IMG/VR virus record: IMGVR_UViG_3300037247_001116
Span: 1 to 64,000 of that record
Strand: one strand, 5' to 3'
From: a virus
DNA length: 64,000 nt
Position 1 is the stretch's first letter; each line of letters starts with the position of its first letter. Both the position numbers and the translations under genes were made by a program. Below the pieces are notes generated by a model. It worked only from the letters and a program-made list of their open reading frames with translations, ran no database searches and was not told the DNA's origin. Of the stretch, positions 7,031 through 63,427 are shown piece after piece.

Positions 7031-7780
7031 TTATTCCTTATTTTTTAAGTCTTGGATTAACTTATAAGAATGAGTCGCAATTTTAGTAATCATTGATAAA
7101 ACATCATCTGCCTTGCTGTCTTTATCAACTATAGAAGAAATAATGGTATATGCCGCTTTCATTGCCGCTTGTGCTTCGATTGAATTGCCAGTTCCTTTAT
7201 AAGTTTTCTTAGCACTACCAGTTTCTTTCCCTGTTTCTTTTTCTTCCTTTTTTTCCTCTACTTTTACAACATAACCTTTAATAACATCGTTGCCCTTCTC
7301 TTGTGGCAAAACTGTTATCTCTACTTCTTTGCCCGTGCATTCAGACTTGAATTTTTGAATCTCTATTGTGCTATCGAGATCATACCAAGTCTTTGTTTCT
7401 TTATCTTCTTTAAGTTTTACCCCGCCTTTTGCAGAAACACCAGCAATGGTTGATAATTTAACCACTAAGTCGCCAGACACATTTGGTTTTTCCGTATCTG
7501 GTTTCTCACCGCGACCATCTTCCTTTACGGGTTCTGCTTTGCCGTCAGACAGCTTCAACATCGTGATAGTACCTGATGACTCTCCTTCTTCGCCTGTTGC
7601 TGTTGATTCATCAATCTCGACATCAACGGTCTTATCTGCCAAGTCATCCCCAAGAAGCCCTTTTCCATCTAAAAACTTTGCAACTGCATCTGAAATATCA
7701 TATGTCTTATTTACTTTTTCCAACTTCAAAAATTTTTCGTCCTTCATTACCCACGAAACTACATCTGTTACTTTGCTCAT
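7031..7780 (-). CDS. uncharacterised acidic protein in replication operon
   Basis: 249 aa, not recognised. The N-terminal 150 residues are acidic and beta-rich, followed by a Lys/Glu linker (about 175-195) and a C-terminal helical part with SIEAQAAMKAA. Similar helical tails occur on some phage recombination or ssDNA-binding proteins, and the place between primase-helicase and 5' nuclease would fit an ssDNA-binding role, but no OB-fold motif can be read. It could equally be an adaptor or substrate for the protease pair downstream. Confidence 0.5.
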   Translation of the reverse strand: MSKVTDVVSWVMKDEKFLKLEKVNKTYDISDAVAKFLDGKGLLGDDLADKTVDVEIDESTATGEEGESSGTITMLKLSDGKAEPVKEDGRGEKPDTEKPNVSGDLVVKLSTIAGVSAKGGVKLKEDKETKTWYDLDSTIEIQKFKSECTGKEVEITVLPQEKGNDVIKGYVVKVEEKKEEKETGKETGSAKKTYKGTGNSIEAQAAMKAAYTIISSIVDKDSKADDVLSMITKIATHSYKLIQDLKNKE

Positions 7781-11115: not shown

Positions 11116-11462
11116 TTCTTCCCCTTCCGTAGTTCTTCGTGAGCATAACCTTGAACATTAAATAAAAGCGCCATCAATGCTTCCTTTTTAGTTATTTCTT
11201 TTCCAGTTTTTTTGTCTACTCTTTTATATCCTCTATGCAAAGCCCACACATCAAAAAAATGACGAAACATAGACTTCATATAAACTGCCTGTGTCATACC
11301 TTTTTGCCAATTGTCCGAATCCCTCAATTTCCCATCTGCCTGTTTTCTATGAACCGTCATATAATCACCAAACGCTTCTAAAACTGGATAACTTAAAAAC
11401 CCATCATAGTCATTCTTTCCTTCGTCTGAATCTCTAGTAGCACCTGAAGCAAACTTACGCAT
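11112..11462 (-). CDS. dATP/dGTP diphosphohydrolase-type domain protein (DUF5664)
   Basis: 116 aa. RKFASGATRDSDEGKNDYDGFLS, with GYAHEELRKG at the end and HRKQADGKLRDSDNWQKG in the middle, is the signature of the phage family annotated DUF5664 or dATP/dGTP diphosphohydrolase N-terminal domain. It presumably acts on nucleotide pools. It is next to a nucleoside deoxyribosyltransferase-like gene, which supports nucleotide metabolism. The enzyme activity of this exact family is not something the sequence proves. Confidence 0.7.
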   Translation of the reverse strand: MRKFASGATRDSDEGKNDYDGFLSYPVLEAFGDYMTVHRKQADGKLRDSDNWQKGMTQAVYMKSMFRHFFDVWALHRGYKRVDKKTGKEITKKEALMALLFNVQGYAHEELRKGKK

Positions 11463-16096: not shown

Positions 16097-16277
16097 CGAA
16101 CTTCTGTTCGCAATTAATATGGCATTTCAATCCGAGAAAAAGATAGTTCCTCTTTTTTATCTTTAGATAAAAAAGATCTTTAATATAAAGTGGTAAAAGT
16201 TTTATACCACTTTTATTAAAAGTGCAATAACTATATACTGTATATTGTCACTTATACCTGTATATAGTATACTATAT
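16097..16277. other. intergenic region dense in perfect inverted repeats
   Basis: No gene in about 230 bp. It holds a 5 bp CGAAC/GTTCG hairpin with TTCT loop (16097-16110), a 12 bp stem TCTTTTTTATCT/AGATAAAAAAGA with a 2-nt loop (16151-16176), a 9 bp stem AAAGTGGTA/TACCACTTT (16187-16213) and a 16 bp palindrome ATATAGTATACTATAT (16262-16277). On the leftward transcript it would form a folded spacer between two operons; the palindrome could be an operator. Confidence 0.55.
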
Positions 16278-16282
16278 GTATA

Positions 16283-16405
16283 TTATAACTCTTCAATAAA
16301 CTCAATTAATGAATTCTCAGAAAACTCAATCCTTTCAATGAGGTCTTCAGATTCTGCTTTTGAAATATCTTCGGATAAATAAATAGTGACATTGATTTTT
16401 CTCAT
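16283..16405 (-). CDS. small acidic protein, 40 aa
   Basis: GGAGAATGTT precedes the ATG. It opens with a beta strand (RKINVTIYLSEDIS) and continues as an acidic helix. Last gene before the inverted-repeat region. Unknown function. Confidence 0.5.
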   Translation of the reverse strand: MRKINVTIYLSEDISKAESEDLIERIEFSENSLIEFIEEL

Positions 16406-28190: not shown

Positions 28191-28380
28191 AAATAGGTCT
28201 GATCTACAATTATTGGAAGGAAGGGCTAAAGTGATCATTAATACATCATTTTTGATTAATTACCGAAACGAAATGGGGATAAAACATCATAGTTGATAGT
28301 TTATAGTAAACTAACAATAGAACACTTGTCCTATTTTATAGAACGGCATCTAAGCCGCCAAACGGCGCAAAGAAGGCGCA

Positions 28381-28440
28381 GGGCGGCGCAGGGCGGCGCA
28401 GGGCGGCGCAGGGCGGCGCTGGGCGGCGCAGGGCGGCGCT
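28381..28440. repeat. six 10 bp tandem repeats GGGCGGCGC(A/T)
   Basis: Units are exact except the last base (A, A, A, T, A, T). The run is preceded by diverged fragments (GGCGCA at 28375) and by related ACGGCGC text, and followed by GGG. Almost pure GC inside strongly AT-rich DNA. The six GGG runs plus the trailing GGG could form a G-quadruplex. Confidence 0.95.
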
Positions 28441-28471
28441 GGGTTGATTATCGCTAAAAGATCCAAATAAG

Positions 28472-53394: not shown

Positions 53395-53408
53395 ACCTCG
53401 TTTAGTAA

Positions 53409-53441
53409 AGAGAAGGGGAGAACAAGATTCTCCTCTTCTCT
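53409..53441 (+). terminator. 14 bp stem-loop after the capsid gene
   Basis: AGAGAAGGGGAGAA (53409-53422), loop CAAGA, TTCTCCTCTTCTCT (53428-53441), one G-U pair. Only a weak T-rich tail (TTAATATTT) follows, so it probably stabilises the capsid mRNA 3' end or attenuates rather than fully terminates. Confidence 0.6.
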
Positions 53442-53468
53442 CCGATTAATATTTAACAGGAAATAAAA

Positions 53469-54603: not shown

Positions 54604-54864
54604 ATGGCTGGTAGATGTTATGAAATTAAAATATCAAATGAAATTATAACCAATGAAATTCCTGACGGTTCTGTTAATTCGTCAAATAAAGATTTTGAGT
54701 TATTAAATACGCCTGTTATTGGAACTGTTGAGGTATATTTGGGCGGTTTAATACAATCTCCTGGTGCTGGTCTGGATTATACGATAAGTGGCAAAACCAT
54801 CTTGTTTATCAAAGCTCCTAGAAATAACAGTGAACTTTTGGTTAGTTATATTAAAGACAATTAA
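54604..54864 (+). CDS. small beta-sandwich virion protein
   Basis: 86 aa. NEIPDGSVNSSNKDFEL, TVEVYLGGLIQ and LDYTI...APRNNSELLVSYI match, with the same order and spacing, the C-terminal domain of the 55177 protein. A single free domain, possibly a decoration unit. Confidence 0.6.
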   Translation: MAGRCYEIKISNEIITNEIPDGSVNSSNKDFELLNTPVIGTVEVYLGGLIQSPGAGLDYTISGKTILFIKAPRNNSELLVSYIKDN

Positions 54865-55176: not shown

Positions 55177-55857
55177 ATGGGAAATAGAAATACAGTTATA
55201 TATGGTGATCAAATTGATGATACAGTCCTGGGTGCTGGTTTAGTCAAGAATGTTTCTGATGATTTCACACATAAGCTCGATGTTAATGTCGATGATTCAT
55301 CTATTGAAATTGACACAAACATAGTTAGAGTTAAAGCATCAGGTGTAACCAATGATATGTTAGCTGGTTCAATTGCTGATGGAAAATTGTTACAGGATTA
55401 TATCCAAACTTCTGAAGTTGATGATAGCACAATCGAATTTGGTGGAGGAAGTCTTAATGTTAAAGCATTAGGAATTAATACTGCTGAATTGGCTAATGAG
55501 GCTGTCACTGAAGGAAAAATTGCAATCTTTAATAGCCCGACCATTGGAGAGTATTTAAAATTTACTTCTAATGGAATGGAATGGATTGCTCTTTCTACTG
55601 AGTTTGTTGAAATAACAGATGTTGTTACTAATGAAATTCCAACTGGCTTAATTAATTCTAGCAATACAGATTATGACTTAGCTAATACACCTGTCGAGGC
55701 TACAGTAGAAGTATATTTAAATGGTATATTTCAAGCTCAAGGAGCAGGTTTAGATTATGAACTTAATCCTTCATCTGGTCAAACAGAAACTATTGTTTTC
55801 TCTAAAGCACCGAGAACTAATAGTGACATTTATGTGAGTTATATAATCAATAATTAA
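55177..55857 (+). CDS. trimeric-fibre-like virion protein
   Basis: 226 aa. Fibre-like text (VDDSSIEIDTN, ATGVTNDML-type repeats, LQDYIQTSEVDDSTIEF) followed by the beta-sandwich domain NEIPTGLINSSNTDYDL...VSYIINN shared with the 54604 protein. Suggests a small appendage with an exchangeable tip. An intrinsic terminator follows. Confidence 0.6.
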   Translation: MGNRNTVIYGDQIDDTVLGAGLVKNVSDDFTHKLDVNVDDSSIEIDTNIVRVKASGVTNDMLAGSIADGKLLQDYIQTSEVDDSTIEFGGGSLNVKALGINTAELANEAVTEGKIAIFNSPTIGEYLKFTSNGMEWIALSTEFVEITDVVTNEIPTGLINSSNTDYDLANTPVEATVEVYLNGIFQAQGAGLDYELNPSSGQTETIVFSKAPRTNSDIYVSYIINN

Positions 55858-55872
55858 CAATAATATTTTCAG

Positions 55873-55916
55873 GGGCAGTTAGAAATAACTGCCCTTGTTA
55901 ATACTTTTTAAAGGCT
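55873..55916 (+). terminator. intrinsic terminator with GAAA tetraloop
   Basis: GGGCAGTTA (55873-55881), GAAA, TAACTGCCC (55886-55894), then TTGTTAATACTTTTT. A 9 bp perfect stem closed by a GNRA loop with a T-rich tail. Confidence 0.85.
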
Positions 55917-55921
55917 AAATC

Positions 55922-58801: not shown

Positions 58802-59217
58802 GTTTCGAACATATTGACCAAAAGATATTTGATGATATTTTTCGTAGAACAGCAGTAAGAGCAATGGTTACTTTGCGAAGTTCTAAGACTAAAGGTGCTA
58901 ATTTCGATCCTAGCAGAAATACGGGGTACGACCACACAAATCAGAACCCATTTGCTGTCAATGTTATTACAAGAACGGTCACAGCAGGTTCTTTGATGTA
59001 TAATCAAATCGGCTTAGTAAAGGCTGGCGCAATTCAAATTATATGCAGTAATAATGATGTTTCGTTGATTGAAAACAGTGAAGTAATTACGATTAATGAT
59101 GTCAATTATTACACCAGAGATGATGCTGTAGGGAACAAATTTTTAATATTTCCTACCCAATTTGCTAAGTATAGTAAAATAATTATATTCAGAAAAGAAG
59201 TGGGCGAAATTGGCTAA
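58798..59217 (+). CDS. head-closure/tail-connector candidate, 139 aa
   Basis: Start ATG 58798; the longer frame from a TTG at 58783 lacks support. Mixed beta protein (AVNVITRTVTAGSLMYNQIGL, VITINDVNYYTRD) placed directly before the gp10-like gene, where head-closure proteins normally lie. Position-based. Confidence 0.5.
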   Translation: MSFEHIDQKIFDDIFRRTAVRAMVTLRSSKTKGANFDPSRNTGYDHTNQNPFAVNVITRTVTAGSLMYNQIGLVKAGAIQIICSNNDVSLIENSEVITINDVNYYTRDDAVGNKFLIFPTQFAKYSKIIIFRKEVGEIG

Positions 59218-59698
59218 CGGAAAAGTAACAATTACAGGTCTTGGCGCAAAATTTGTACAAAATCAGGTAACAGCTATTGTCGCAATATCTGAAAGACAGA
59301 TGGAAGCGATGGCTAGAGAGACTGAGTTGGTTATTCAAACCAAGATCCAAGAGCGCATTAAAAGAGATGGTTCCACAGGTAAATTAGCGAAATCTTTTTA
59401 TACAATTAAAACTCCTGGTGGTTGGGGTGTTGGCGACATAGACTACTTAAACGCGAATGCAAAACAATGGTATTGGTTGAATTTCGGAATTGCACAGTCT
59501 GGAAGAACAATCCCGCCTGGTACAAATGAAAATAGTAGAATTAGAGGTCATTTTTCACCAGCTACCAAGGGGCGGTTCGTAAAAGGTTCACCCAGTTTTC
59601 CAATGAATCCAACTAAACCAATCGAAGCTATTAATTATATTCAGGCAACACTTAATGAAGTAAACAGTATCATTGCAAAGGTACTGGCGAGAGGATAA
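59210..59698 (+). CDS. HK97 gp10-like tail completion protein
   Basis: 162 aa. ETELVIQTKIQERIKRDGSTGKLAKSF and the later WGVGDIDYLNANAKQWYWLNFG match the gp10-like family (helix with T-x-A/R-Q, then W...Y...E/G sheet). A TTG start (59210) seems used: no ATG occurs before residue 29 and the gene overlaps the previous stop. Confidence 0.65.
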   Translation: MANGKVTITGLGAKFVQNQVTAIVAISERQMEAMARETELVIQTKIQERIKRDGSTGKLAKSFYTIKTPGGWGVGDIDYLNANAKQWYWLNFGIAQSGRTIPPGTNENSRIRGHFSPATKGRFVKGSPSFPMNPTKPIEAINYIQATLNEVNSIIAKVLARG

Positions 59699-60454: not shown

Positions 60455-61687
60455 ATGGCAGATGAAATTTTACATGGGAGAGCAATTAGTCCTTGGATCA
60501 TCCCAAACAAGGGTGGAAGTCCTGACGACTTTCATGGATTGACAAATGTTGGAGCAGACCCAAGTGTTGCTTCAGAAAAAGTTTATGTTATTGGAAAAAC
60601 GGCGGCATGTGGTACAGATAAAGAAACACCAGTGGTAACGGTTCCGTTACCGATGTTAGAAAGAGGAGAAATTGATTCGTATCTTACGCTTGCAAATTTA
60701 GATGCCGAACCTGCTGGTGGTTTTGACCTGCTTGATTTCAGTTCCTCTTTGGTTGATGTAGTTTATTATATTAGAGATGCAAATGCTGGTAATGTTTTAG
60801 CGTCCATGTGGATGCCGAAATGTGCATTAAACAGTTTAGCGATCAATTTCGACGACCCCAAGGGTAGGATTACAAGGGATTTAGAAGTTGGAAGCGACGA
60901 TAGACGAGTTTTCTTAGGTGGAAATAAATATCTTATCCATCTTGAAGACACTGCGCCATCTGGAACTTCTGGTTCTTATGAAATAGATGTTTCTGATCCT
61001 GCACCTGTTGTTGACCCAAATGTTGCATTGTCATATATTCTTCGTATTGATAGAACAAGAGCTGGTGTAACAACCTCTTTGGCTATCACAACGGATTATA
61101 CATATACACATGGAACTTTTACGATTGATGTCCTAGCCGCATTAGCTGATGATGTTTATAATGTTTATTATAGTGCCGCGTCTTTTGGTACGCCAGCAGA
61201 TCCGACAAGTATTGATTCGGATTCGATTTGTTATTTGAAGGCAGAAAACATCACGGTTCTTATTGACGACGGATCTACAGAAGTAGAGATGGACAGGTTA
61301 AGTTCATTATCAATTTCTGTAACGATTAATCGTATTGATGAGAATGTTCTTGGAGATGACGAAACAATTCTTCGTGAAATTACGGACACACCAGTTACAG
61401 TAGCATTTTCTGGTCGTGTTAAAAATTATAACGGAGAAAAGGCATGGATGGCTCAGTTAGGCGACACAGAAGTTATTTCAAGTGTCAAACTTTTTAGCGA
61501 TGCTGTTAAAATCTCTGTTAAAATCCACGACAATGCAGATAAAGACACCTTTTTGATTGGTTATCAGGTTGATAATCTGTCTTACACAGACGGAAGCTTT
61601 TCAACTGATGCTAATGAATTTGGTACGATGGATGTGACCGCCGAAGGCGATAATCTTTTGATTACCACTACTGAAGGCGATCTGTAA
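60455..61687 (+). CDS. major tail (tube) protein
   Basis: 410 aa, after the terminator gene and before the tape-measure chaperones, the fixed place of the tube protein. Beta-rich throughout, with an inserted domain around residues 165-260 (VALSYILRIDRTRAGVTTSLAITTDYTYT...) that resembles the small beta-sandwich of the 54-56 kb proteins. Forms the tail tube. No sheath gene precedes it. Confidence 0.7.
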   Translation: MADEILHGRAISPWIIPNKGGSPDDFHGLTNVGADPSVASEKVYVIGKTAACGTDKETPVVTVPLPMLERGEIDSYLTLANLDAEPAGGFDLLDFSSSLVDVVYYIRDANAGNVLASMWMPKCALNSLAINFDDPKGRITRDLEVGSDDRRVFLGGNKYLIHLEDTAPSGTSGSYEIDVSDPAPVVDPNVALSYILRIDRTRAGVTTSLAITTDYTYTHGTFTIDVLAALADDVYNVYYSAASFGTPADPTSIDSDSICYLKAENITVLIDDGSTEVEMDRLSSLSISVTINRIDENVLGDDETILREITDTPVTVAFSGRVKNYNGEKAWMAQLGDTEVISSVKLFSDAVKISVKIHDNADKDTFLIGYQVDNLSYTDGSFSTDANEFGTMDVTAEGDNLLITTTEGDL

Positions 61688-61704
61688 TCTACTCTGAAAT
61701 CATT

Positions 61705-61921
61705 GCCGTAAGGCTTGATTGTCAGTTATGTCTAAATCCACATAGGTATAAAGGCTGAGAATTTTATATTTGATATGTGGAGAATGGAATTTGGTGACAC
61801 CTTCTCAGAGGTAAAACACCATTTTCCGATATATGAATGGTAGATAATTGTTGGGTTTCCCGAAGGTTATCTATAAAATGTTTTGAGAAGGAGTGGGATA
61901 CATGAGCGTCCTACCCTTCTC
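61705..61921 (+). other. structured non-coding RNA region in the tail operon
   Basis: 256 bp gap with six complementary pairs: GCC/GGC closed by GTAA (61705-61714), TCCACATA/TATGTGGA (61737-44/61774-81), CTGAGAA/TTCTCAG (61755-61/61802-08), ACCATT/AATGGT (61818-23/61836-41), TAGATAA/TTATCTA (61841-47/61867-73), and GAGAAGG + GTGGGA with TCCTAC + CCTTCTC (61885-61921). The second and third interlock as a pseudoknot or alternate. Confidence 0.55.
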
Positions 61922-61943
61922 TTACATAAAAAGTGAGGAACGT

Positions 61944-62213
61944 ATGGATAAGAAATTGAAAGAATTTATAAATAAACTCTGTAAAGATCAGAGCCGAACC
62001 CTTGTAGGAAGAATTTGCAAACAAATAGAAATTCTTCAGGATCAACCTAATCTTTCTATTGAAACAAAACAGACTTTAGACCTTTTAAAATCTCTTAACA
62101 AAGAACTCATTTATGAGGAATTTAGGGATTTGAAGAATGCTGTTGTTTTTTATTCAGAAGGTCGCGAATACGAAAAATATCCAATCTACACCCCCACTAA
62201 AGAAACAAAATAG
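61944..62213 (+). CDS. small helical protein before the tail chaperones, 89 aa
   Basis: I prefer the ATG at 61944 (GAGG upstream). An in-frame ATG at 61902 also has AAGGAG, but that site lies in the 61885-61921 hairpin. Charged helical chain. Unknown; could be an accessory tail chaperone. The 3' end contains a terminator stem. Confidence 0.5.
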   Translation: MDKKLKEFINKLCKDQSRTLVGRICKQIEILQDQPNLSIETKQTLDLLKSLNKELIYEEFRDLKNAVVFYSEGREYEKYPIYTPTKETK

Positions 62214-62230
62214 GTGGGGTCTTTTTATTT
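62192..62230 (+). terminator. intrinsic terminator inside the tail operon
   Basis: CCCCAC (62192-62197) pairs with GTGGGG (62214-62219), followed by TCTTTTTATTT. The 5' arm lies in the last codons of the 61944 gene. Confidence 0.65.
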
Positions 62231-62245
62231 ACCGAAAGGCTTATT

Positions 62246-62386
62246 ATGGAAGAACGAATGAAGGCATTAGAAGTTGAGATTTCCTATTTGAGAAAAGTTA
62301 TCGAAGAGTTAAAAGAAATGCGTACTGTCGAAATTCACACCCATTTTACAAGTCAATATTTACAATGCCCTGGAAACAAGGAATAA
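62246..62386 (+). CDS. small coiled-coil protein, 46 aa
   Basis: KALEVEISYLRKVIEELKEMR is a short coiled coil, followed by an HTHF segment. GAAAGGC upstream. Unknown. Confidence 0.45.
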   Translation: MEERMKALEVEISYLRKVIEELKEMRTVEIHTHFTSQYLQCPGNKE

Positions 62387-62403: not shown

Positions 62404-63042
62404 ATGGATATTTTATCACCCGAAAAAATAGCGCAACTCAAAGCCGTTTTGAAAGAGATGGATGTGAGTTCTGCAAACGAATCATTGATTCAAGATAATA
62501 AAATTGTGTTCCCTTATAAGGATAAAATTTATCGCGTCCGAATGCCTAACCAAATCGAACAGACACTTGCCGAAGAAGCACAGAACAAAGTCAAGCTCCG
62601 TTTAACCCAAGAGAAGGGCAATCGTTCAAGAAACCAGCTAATAAGAGATTTGAAAGAGAACAACGGTCTTGATGTGAAAGCTCTTGAAGCCGAAAAAGAT
62701 GGAATTAAAGAAGAGTTGCAGTATGTTTATTTAGAATTGGCAGTTGTTCCTTCTGAGTTTCCTGATAAGATTGAAGCACTTATTAAAAAGAAGGAAGAAA
62801 TCGAACTGCGTTTCATGGAAATTTTTGTCGAGCTTGCAGAAGTTCTTGAGCCTTGTATTCAAGAACAAGCAAAAATCGAATTTTATAGATTTTTAGCTTT
62901 TACATGTGCAGAAGTCAAAACAGGAAAAGAAGATTTCACTTCTGTGTGGGAAACTTATGATGATTGTAAAAAAGATGGTAGTGGATTATCAACACTTTTC
63001 TTAAATAATCTTCAAAGTTTATTGCTAAAGATTAAGGAATAA
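62404..63042 (+). CDS. tail assembly chaperone (gpG-type)
   Basis: 212 aa from the ATG at 62404 (AAGGAG 8 nt upstream). Charged helical protein in the fixed position before a small partner and the tape measure. Helices with KKKEEIELRFMEIFVELAEVLEP. It keeps the tape measure soluble during tail assembly. No slippery site was found at its end. Confidence 0.65.
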   Translation: MDILSPEKIAQLKAVLKEMDVSSANESLIQDNKIVFPYKDKIYRVRMPNQIEQTLAEEAQNKVKLRLTQEKGNRSRNQLIRDLKENNGLDVKALEAEKDGIKEELQYVYLELAVVPSEFPDKIEALIKKKEEIELRFMEIFVELAEVLEPCIQEQAKIEFYRFLAFTCAEVKTGKEDFTSVWETYDDCKKDGSGLSTLFLNNLQSLLLKIKE

Positions 63043-63043
63043 A

Positions 63044-63427
63044 ATGTTATTAGAAGCCCATATCAGAAAACTTGCGAGAAGCAATTACTGGCAAGAAATT
63101 TATAATTCTTCTAAAACTTGTTCTGGAATTTATTTATTCGAAAATCAAACAAAATTTAGCGGAATCCAATACCTCTTTTTATATTGGTTGAGAGTATATG
63201 CAATGATATATTCTGAACTTGCTCAATTAGAGTGGACAAATTTGGATGAGGAAGTTATTGAAAACAATGATAGATTCGATGCTTTTATGTATTGGCGGTC
63301 AAAGCATATAGAAAAACAGATAAGAAAATCGAAGTCAGAAGAGAAAAAACATAAAGAGAAACCAGGAATGTTAAATGTTCCGATTTATACTGGTAATAAA
63401 AATAAAGATAAAGAAGGTGACAAATAA
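63044..63427 (+). CDS. second tail assembly chaperone (gpT-type)
   Basis: 127 aa. LARSNYWQEIYNSSK, YLFLYWLRVYAMIYSEL and RFDAFMYWRSKH follow the chaperone-T pattern. One base separates it from the previous stop; its frame is +1 relative to it. Start of the next gene overlaps its stop. Confidence 0.65.
   Translation: MLLEAHIRKLARSNYWQEIYNSSKTCSGIYLFENQTKFSGIQYLFLYWLRVYAMIYSELAQLEWTNLDEEVIENNDRFDAFMYWRSKHIEKQIRKSKSEEKKHKEKPGMLNVPIYTGNKNKDKEGDK

Follow-up and report, generated by a model that had tools for sequence, protein, structure and literature searches.

A multi-helix noncoding RNA element between putative tail tube and tail chaperone genes in the late gene cluster of a phage, and its possible role at an mRNA boundary

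The window analysed here covers positions 1 to 64,000 of a 102,658-base IMG/VR virus record (IMGVR_UViG_3300037247_001116). The late gene cluster of this phage lies on the + strand and extends from about 40.2 to 73.9 kb (33.7 kb). Its order is tail fibre-like genes, a neck gene, a gene for a 410-aa protein, a noncoding element, a small ORF, two further ORFs and the tape measure gene. The tail-completion/neck gene (59210-59698, +) matched phrog_5 (E 6.5e-4) and the 911-aa tape measure protein (63427-66162, +) matched phrog_1533 (E 1.4e-15). The 410-aa product (60455-61687, +) is a putative tail tube protein, placed between the neck gene and the chaperone-like ORFs and tape measure. The 212-aa ORF at 62404-63042 (+) would by its position encode the first tail chaperone, and the ORF at 63044-63427 (+) a second chaperone-like protein; "tail tube" and "chaperone" are labels by gene order only. 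Neither the 410-aa protein nor the chaperone-like ORFs matched any family, and the single-sequence AF2 model of the 410-aa protein was unusable (mean pLDDT 32). The two chaperone-like ORFs (62404-63427) adjoin each other in different frames; as for a frameshift between them, no -1 slippery heptamer in the correct phase was found within the first ORF.

Several other features of the window were recorded. Two adjacent ORFs among the tail fibre-like genes (54604-54864 and 55177-55857) have in common, at the C-terminus, the stretch VEVYLxGxxQxxGAGLDY..., which probably represents a repeated fibre domain. A replication and repair set at 2878-30511 comprises ATP-dependent ligase, prim-pol, RuvB-like, integrase-like and RtcB genes. 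Within AT-rich surroundings, a GC-rich tandem repeat (28365-28454; about nine units of the 10-bp sequence GGCGCAGGGC) sits between divergent gene clusters at a sign change of the GC skew and is a candidate origin or control region.

The element (61694-61927, +) is a noncoding stretch of about 233 bases with six helices, made up of single hairpins and a three-way junction with two arms, the loops of which are complementary over 7 bp. No ORF of at least 30 aa begins in 61688-61892 on either strand, the first listed start being GTG 61893, and hidden coding in the gap was ruled out because stops break the frames. The first hairpin, P1 (61694-61725), has 12 bp and a GUAA loop and starts 7 nt past the tail-tube stop. 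P2 (61727-61732/61828-61833; pair probabilities 0.72-0.84) closes the three-way junction with the arms P3 and P4. P3 (61737-61781) has 17 bp, a 3-nt bulge and the loop GCUGAGAA (L3), and P4 (61786-61827), a hairpin with internal loops, has the apical sequence UUCUCAG (L4, 61802-61808), complementary to L3 at 61755-61761. These are followed by P5 (61840-61874; 15 bp) and P6 (61885-61921, with four closing pairs extending to 61878-61927; 14 bp with one bulged A). Since all of P1 to P6, P5 included, are without a U tract, the element does not itself qualify as a terminator; a terminator prediction at 61893-61914 was rejected, the flag owing solely to the pyrimidines that follow in the 3' arm of P6 itself. 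The initial annotation had described six complementary pairs, two of them interlocking, and both the six helices and the 7-bp match of L3 with L4 are present.

The predicted fold is strong. The RNA of 61705-61921, the span first proposed for the element, folds at -73.4 kcal/mol (z -5.62), and none of 200 shuffles was equally low, although a start at 61705 cuts the 5' arm of P1, which begins at 61694. From the true 5' border (61688-61921) the energy is -80.2 kcal/mol (z -6.0), a stability equalled by none of 3000 dinucleotide shuffles. The pair probability exceeds 0.8 for nearly all pairs, and the fold is thus well defined. In a scan of 1276 segments of 217 nt on both strands, with 25 shuffles per segment, 61705-61921 came 5th in z and 2nd in energy. 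Its z alone is not unique, since four other segments had a z of -5.4 or lower, at least one of them mostly within a gene. The best z of the scan was that of 16105-16321 (-6.1 on the - strand and -4.9 on the + strand), which has AT-rich hairpins in series. The + strand of the element folds at -84.6 kcal/mol (z -6.1) versus -64.0 kcal/mol (z -4.4) for its complement, and 11 of the 81 pairs in the + strand fold are G-U. The G-U pairs and the poorer fold of the complement suggest that RNA of the + strand late transcript is likely the actor.

Stretches of this kind are rare in the late cluster. Only three stretches longer than 45 nt contained no ORF reaching 45 aa, namely 53395-53468, 55858-55921 and the element, and no noncoding stretch other than the element exceeds 74 nt. 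Each of the three contains a strong hairpin (z -3.7, -5.2 and -6.1, respectively), which suggests that hairpins at gene borders are a habit of this phage. The hairpin at 53410-53441 (13 bp, GAGAAGGGGAGAA/TTCTCCTCTTCTC) has no U tract and comes directly after a 325-aa capsid candidate, and that at 55864-55904 (12 bp, AGGGGCAGTTA/TAACTGCCCT) has a delayed T run and lies between two tail-fibre-like genes. The hairpins at 53410 and 61885 have GAGAAGGRG in common, at its only two sites on the + strand; we dropped this sequence as a signal because a 7-mer shared between such gaps is expected about once by chance. That the element is a leftover intergenic stretch which happens to contain several hairpins and has no function appears improbable. 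Such a reading can appeal to the four scan segments of similar z and to the searches, which found no relative that would show conservation, but it has to account both for the 3000 shuffles, none of which was as stable, and for the length of a gap that has no counterpart in the late cluster.

The two loops of the junction arms may contact each other. L3 (CUGAGAA, 61755-61761) and L4 (UUCUCAG, 61802-61808) can form seven Watson-Crick pairs. A match of this kind was also found in 28 of 3000 shuffles and in 16 of 852 natural segments (two of the 16 being the element's own site), so the complementarity is suggestive and not strong. In the energy model, holding both loops open costs 2.5 kcal/mol and the L3/L4 duplex is worth -7.5 kcal/mol; the contact is therefore plausible. 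The element also has an alternative helix (61800-61810/61881-61891, +), which is mutually exclusive with the apex of P4 and with P6. It is the top-scoring continuous helix of the region, yet it is missing from the final fold. The helix, or nearly the whole of it, belongs to the preferred state of transcripts ending at 61895, 61900, 61905 and 61912, and at 61921 it is replaced by P4 and P6. When forced into the complete RNA, the alternative helix gave a structure less stable by 10.5 kcal/mol. The alternative fold thus looks switch-like in the model, although AAGGAG stays paired in both states.

This AAGGAG (61888-61893) lies in the stem of P6, and an AUG (61902) lies in its loop, as the initial annotation described when it counted the final hairpin as 13 bp and suggested translational control of the next gene. 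That gene is the small ORF, for which GTG 61893, AUG 61902 in the P6 loop and AUG 61944 are candidate starts. The 14 codons from 61902 to 61943 scored below all 500 of 500 in-frame 14-codon blocks drawn from 20 genes of the phage and resemble out-of-frame sequence; this low score is not decisive because the same bases are also constrained by pairing. The 89 codons from 61944 have a gene-like score. Opening the initiation region would cost 18.8 kcal/mol at 61902, 15.7 kcal/mol at 61893 and 7.9 kcal/mol at 61944, compared with 3.2 to 15.6 kcal/mol in 28 late genes, of which 20 were below 7.9 (one start in this set was placed 2 nt off, at 54606 for 54604; the maximum and the order are the same without it). 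The bases at 61944 are open in the model only about 40% of the time. An ordinary GAGG Shine-Dalgarno sequence (61935-61938), with its spacer up to 61943, precedes this AUG. From the codon score, the opening cost and the GAGG, we take AUG 61944 as the start, and the AAGGAG/AUG pair in P6 is probably not a start site. With the start outside the hairpin, the main ground for translational control is removed.

The small ORF then spans 61944-62213 (+) and encodes 89 aa (103 aa if started at 61902). The single-sequence AF2 model of the 89-aa protein has three helices (mean pLDDT 72), and no PDB fold matched it with an E of 0.001 or below. Searches with the protein gave no good family or PDB match and no relatives in phage records, viral contigs or species genomes.

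A translational switch nevertheless deserves consideration, although we regard it as unlikely. The element would act as a leader and keep the ribosome site of the following ORF hidden, with P6 or the alternative helix masking AAGGAG, and the three-way junction with its kissing loops would sense a ligand or protein and pick the fold. The good spacing of the stem AAGGAG and the loop AUG, the mutually exclusive helices, and the partial transcripts ending between 61895 and 61912 that favour the alternative helix all fit such a device, and the topology resembles that of riboswitches with loop-loop contacts. There is also precedent in the phage T4 genes e, soc, 49 and I-TevI, whose ribosome sites are concealed in hairpins (PMC3014915). 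The switch, however, would not free AAGGAG, which is paired in both folds, and in the full RNA the alternative fold is the less stable one by 10.5 kcal/mol. The cost of opening 61902 is above that of every one of the 28 late genes, and the codon statistics of 61902-61943 also weigh against a start there. Of the translational control first suggested, the placement of AAGGAG and AUG stands; the codon statistics and the opening energies favouring 61944 weaken the rest.

An intrinsic terminator stem-loop (62192-62219, +) lies 271 nt past P6, in agreement with the distance of about 270 nt given initially. It is a GC-rich hairpin, with the stem CCCCAC/GTGGGG, followed directly by the U tract in TCTTTTTATT, and it overlaps the stop codon of the small ORF. 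It was the only site in a strict terminator scan of 40001-76000 (+), a scan which misses loops longer than 19 nt, such as that of the T-run hairpin (74034-74076) closing the late cluster, and which does not count the hairpin at 55864-55904, whose T run is slightly downstream.

The association of the RNA, the small ORF and the terminator raises the question of whether they arrived as one cassette between the tail tube and chaperone genes, like a moron. The small ORF ends in its terminator, as does gp15 of HK97, a moron of 62 aa that has a terminator of its own and lies in the tail block before the tape measure gene, and an imperfect 14-nt repeat (12 of 14 positions) at 61703 and 62229 flanks the unit. 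That repeat, however, does not stand out from many chance repeats, the unit has no promoter of its own that we could find, the small ORF is without relatives in phages, viral contigs and genomes, and the base composition is not clearly foreign (GC 0.37 and 0.31 versus 0.33). We consider such an insertion quite improbable.

The element was compared with known RNA families and searched for in other genomes. None of 4227 Rfam families, including pRNA, GOLLD, ROOL and riboswitches, matched the window at the gathering cut-off, and under permissive settings the stretch 61600-62300 yielded a single match, located elsewhere and attributable to chance (E 2.7). No tRNA or tmRNA was detected in the window. 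A retron or DGR RNA was ruled out, since the reverse transcriptase family PF00078 had no match in the 102,658-base record. Searches of the record for second copies, with blastn-short and with two single-sequence covariance models (R1 and R2), returned the element only, which is thus single-copy; R2 also gave a weak match to the element's own P5 on the opposite strand. No match to R2 was found across 91 loci (L010-L100), and the DNA of the element matched nothing in plasmids and gave chance matches only in phages. No description of a similar RNA at this position turned up in literature listings and the opening parts of abstracts, which argues only weakly for its absence from print. The element therefore fits the wording "undescribed structured RNA" of the initial annotation, in that it has a strong fold, no Rfam match and no similar sequence found.

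Relatives of the surrounding genes were also scarce. Single-protein searches of viral contigs and of species genome contigs found none, and tblastn in phages found none for the tail tube, the 41769 ORF, the capsid candidate and the small ORF, and only weak matches for the tape measure. An AAA ATPase (L002 14454-15659; record 74454-75659, -) has relatives of 42-47% in the phage records L010 and L090-L092. A search of viral contigs with an ATPase alignment gave 80 distant loci, and one with a two-sequence alignment gave four closer ones (one shared). The tail-tube protein had no match in any of the 50 records, out of the 80 with distant ATPase loci, in which it was sought, and neither it nor the tape measure had a match in the four ATPase-sharing records. 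The compared stretches of L090-L092 share essentially the ATPase alone, with three other ORFs weakly matching one place. Judging from these sequence comparisons, the AAA ATPase appears to be a gene moving between unrelated phages, and the phage seems nearly alone in the searched collections, only the AAA ATPase having moderate relatives.

These results bear on whether the element could be a free noncoding RNA, cut or terminated from the late transcript and acting in trans in host or phage regulation or in assembly. Its compact multi-helix fold, GNRA-type loop, three-way junction and loop-loop complementarity would suit such an RNA, as would the noncoding nature of the region and the nearby terminator. 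That terminator, however, stands behind an ORF, no sigma70-like promoter was called in 61688-61943 (+), and the element is single-copy and belongs to no Rfam family. A free RNA is in our judgement rather improbable. We consider it very improbable that the element is a self-standing phage RNA with a role in tail assembly or expression, in which, for example, loop-loop contacts would link its copies together, or the RNA would bind the tail-tube or chaperone protein and so adjust how much tail tube is made.

We tentatively favour, with somewhat less than even confidence, a role of the element at an mRNA boundary, as an elaborate cis-acting 3'-UTR element that protects or trims the tail-tube mRNA upstream of an attenuating terminator. 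The tail-tube stop is followed after 7 nt by the element and then by the small ORF, the U-tract terminator and the chaperone and tape-measure genes. P1 to P6 would fold one after another while the late transcript is made, and may either block 3'-5' exonucleases or offer cut sites to a double-strand-specific RNase, so that the tail-tube mRNA would outlive the rest of the transcript. The terminator at 62192-62219 would let only part of the polymerases reach the chaperone and tape-measure genes, so that tail tube would be made in large amounts and the chaperone and tape measure in small ones. The junction with its complementary loops might serve as a stable core, or a putative regulator might act there. 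Phages produce tail-tube subunits by the hundred, whereas the neighbouring genes yield only a few tape measures and chaperones, a difference usually credited to promoters, terminators and ribosome sites. The earlier idea of a control of tail stoichiometry is compatible with the boundary explanation, and the initial interpretation as a whole is partly supported. If the boundary explanation is true, the large folded RNA at the tail-tube border is a testable RNA device for setting the subunit ratio; it may also represent a new phage RNA family, should relatives turn up.

The element resembles several known systems in part. In the last hairpin only, it is like those of T4 e, soc, 49 and I-TevI, with the Shine-Dalgarno sequence in the stem and the AUG in the loop; unlike in those genes, a downstream start outside the hairpin is here more likely used. 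A T4-like late promoter was considered for TATAAAAT at 61872-61879, which fits by place, but the motif is a common one, occurring 20 times on the + strand of the record, which makes the candidate a weak one. Purine-class riboswitches have loop-loop contacts on a three-way junction, and the element is similar in that its junction bears two arms, comparable in length, whose loops are complementary. It differs from riboswitches in having no Rfam match and in that the alternative fold leaves the ribosome site hidden. The pRNA of phi29 is phage-encoded and noncoding and has complementary loops, traits which the element shares with pRNA and with GOLLD and ROOL RNAs. Ornate phage RNAs are often near tRNA genes and many GOLLD RNAs are longer than 800 nt (PMC12286853). 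In contrast to GOLLD, ROOL and pRNA, the element has no Rfam match, is much shorter than GOLLD and lies in a window without tRNA genes. The likeness to HK97 gp15 is that of a small ORF with a terminator within the tail block; here, unlike there, no promoter was called and no relatives were found.

Parallels are also found at the same border in other phages. The initial annotation regarded the element as filling a gap where phages normally have none, a view that does not hold as a rule for the reference siphophages. HK97 has an annotated "terminator, putative" (7443-7462) between the major tail subunit and chaperone genes, and the tail tube/chaperone border of TP901-1 is a 114-nt gap with a hairpin and a T run. 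For SPP1, a terminator is predicted at 11,255-11,304 between the tail tube and chaperone genes, where 17.1* ends at 11,279 and 17.5 starts at 11,363 (PMC6316719). The border in lambda has 15 nt. It is thus marked in three of four reference siphophages, the four having been chosen as well known. The element shares with HK97, TP901-1 and SPP1 a strong RNA hairpin ahead of the chaperone gene, which in those phages is a predicted terminator. Those phages have one hairpin, whereas here there are six helices without a U tract and the terminator stands behind an extra ORF. Because a single hairpin serves the two other borders of this phage and the reference phages, six helices and complementary loops exceed the job of a boundary, and since the boundary explanation leaves this elaborateness unaccounted for, an RNA that is regulated or acts in trans still has a real share of the probability. 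We infer the steps from fold to effect; the simplest account would be that the element is this phage's tail-tube/chaperone border element in an enlarged form.
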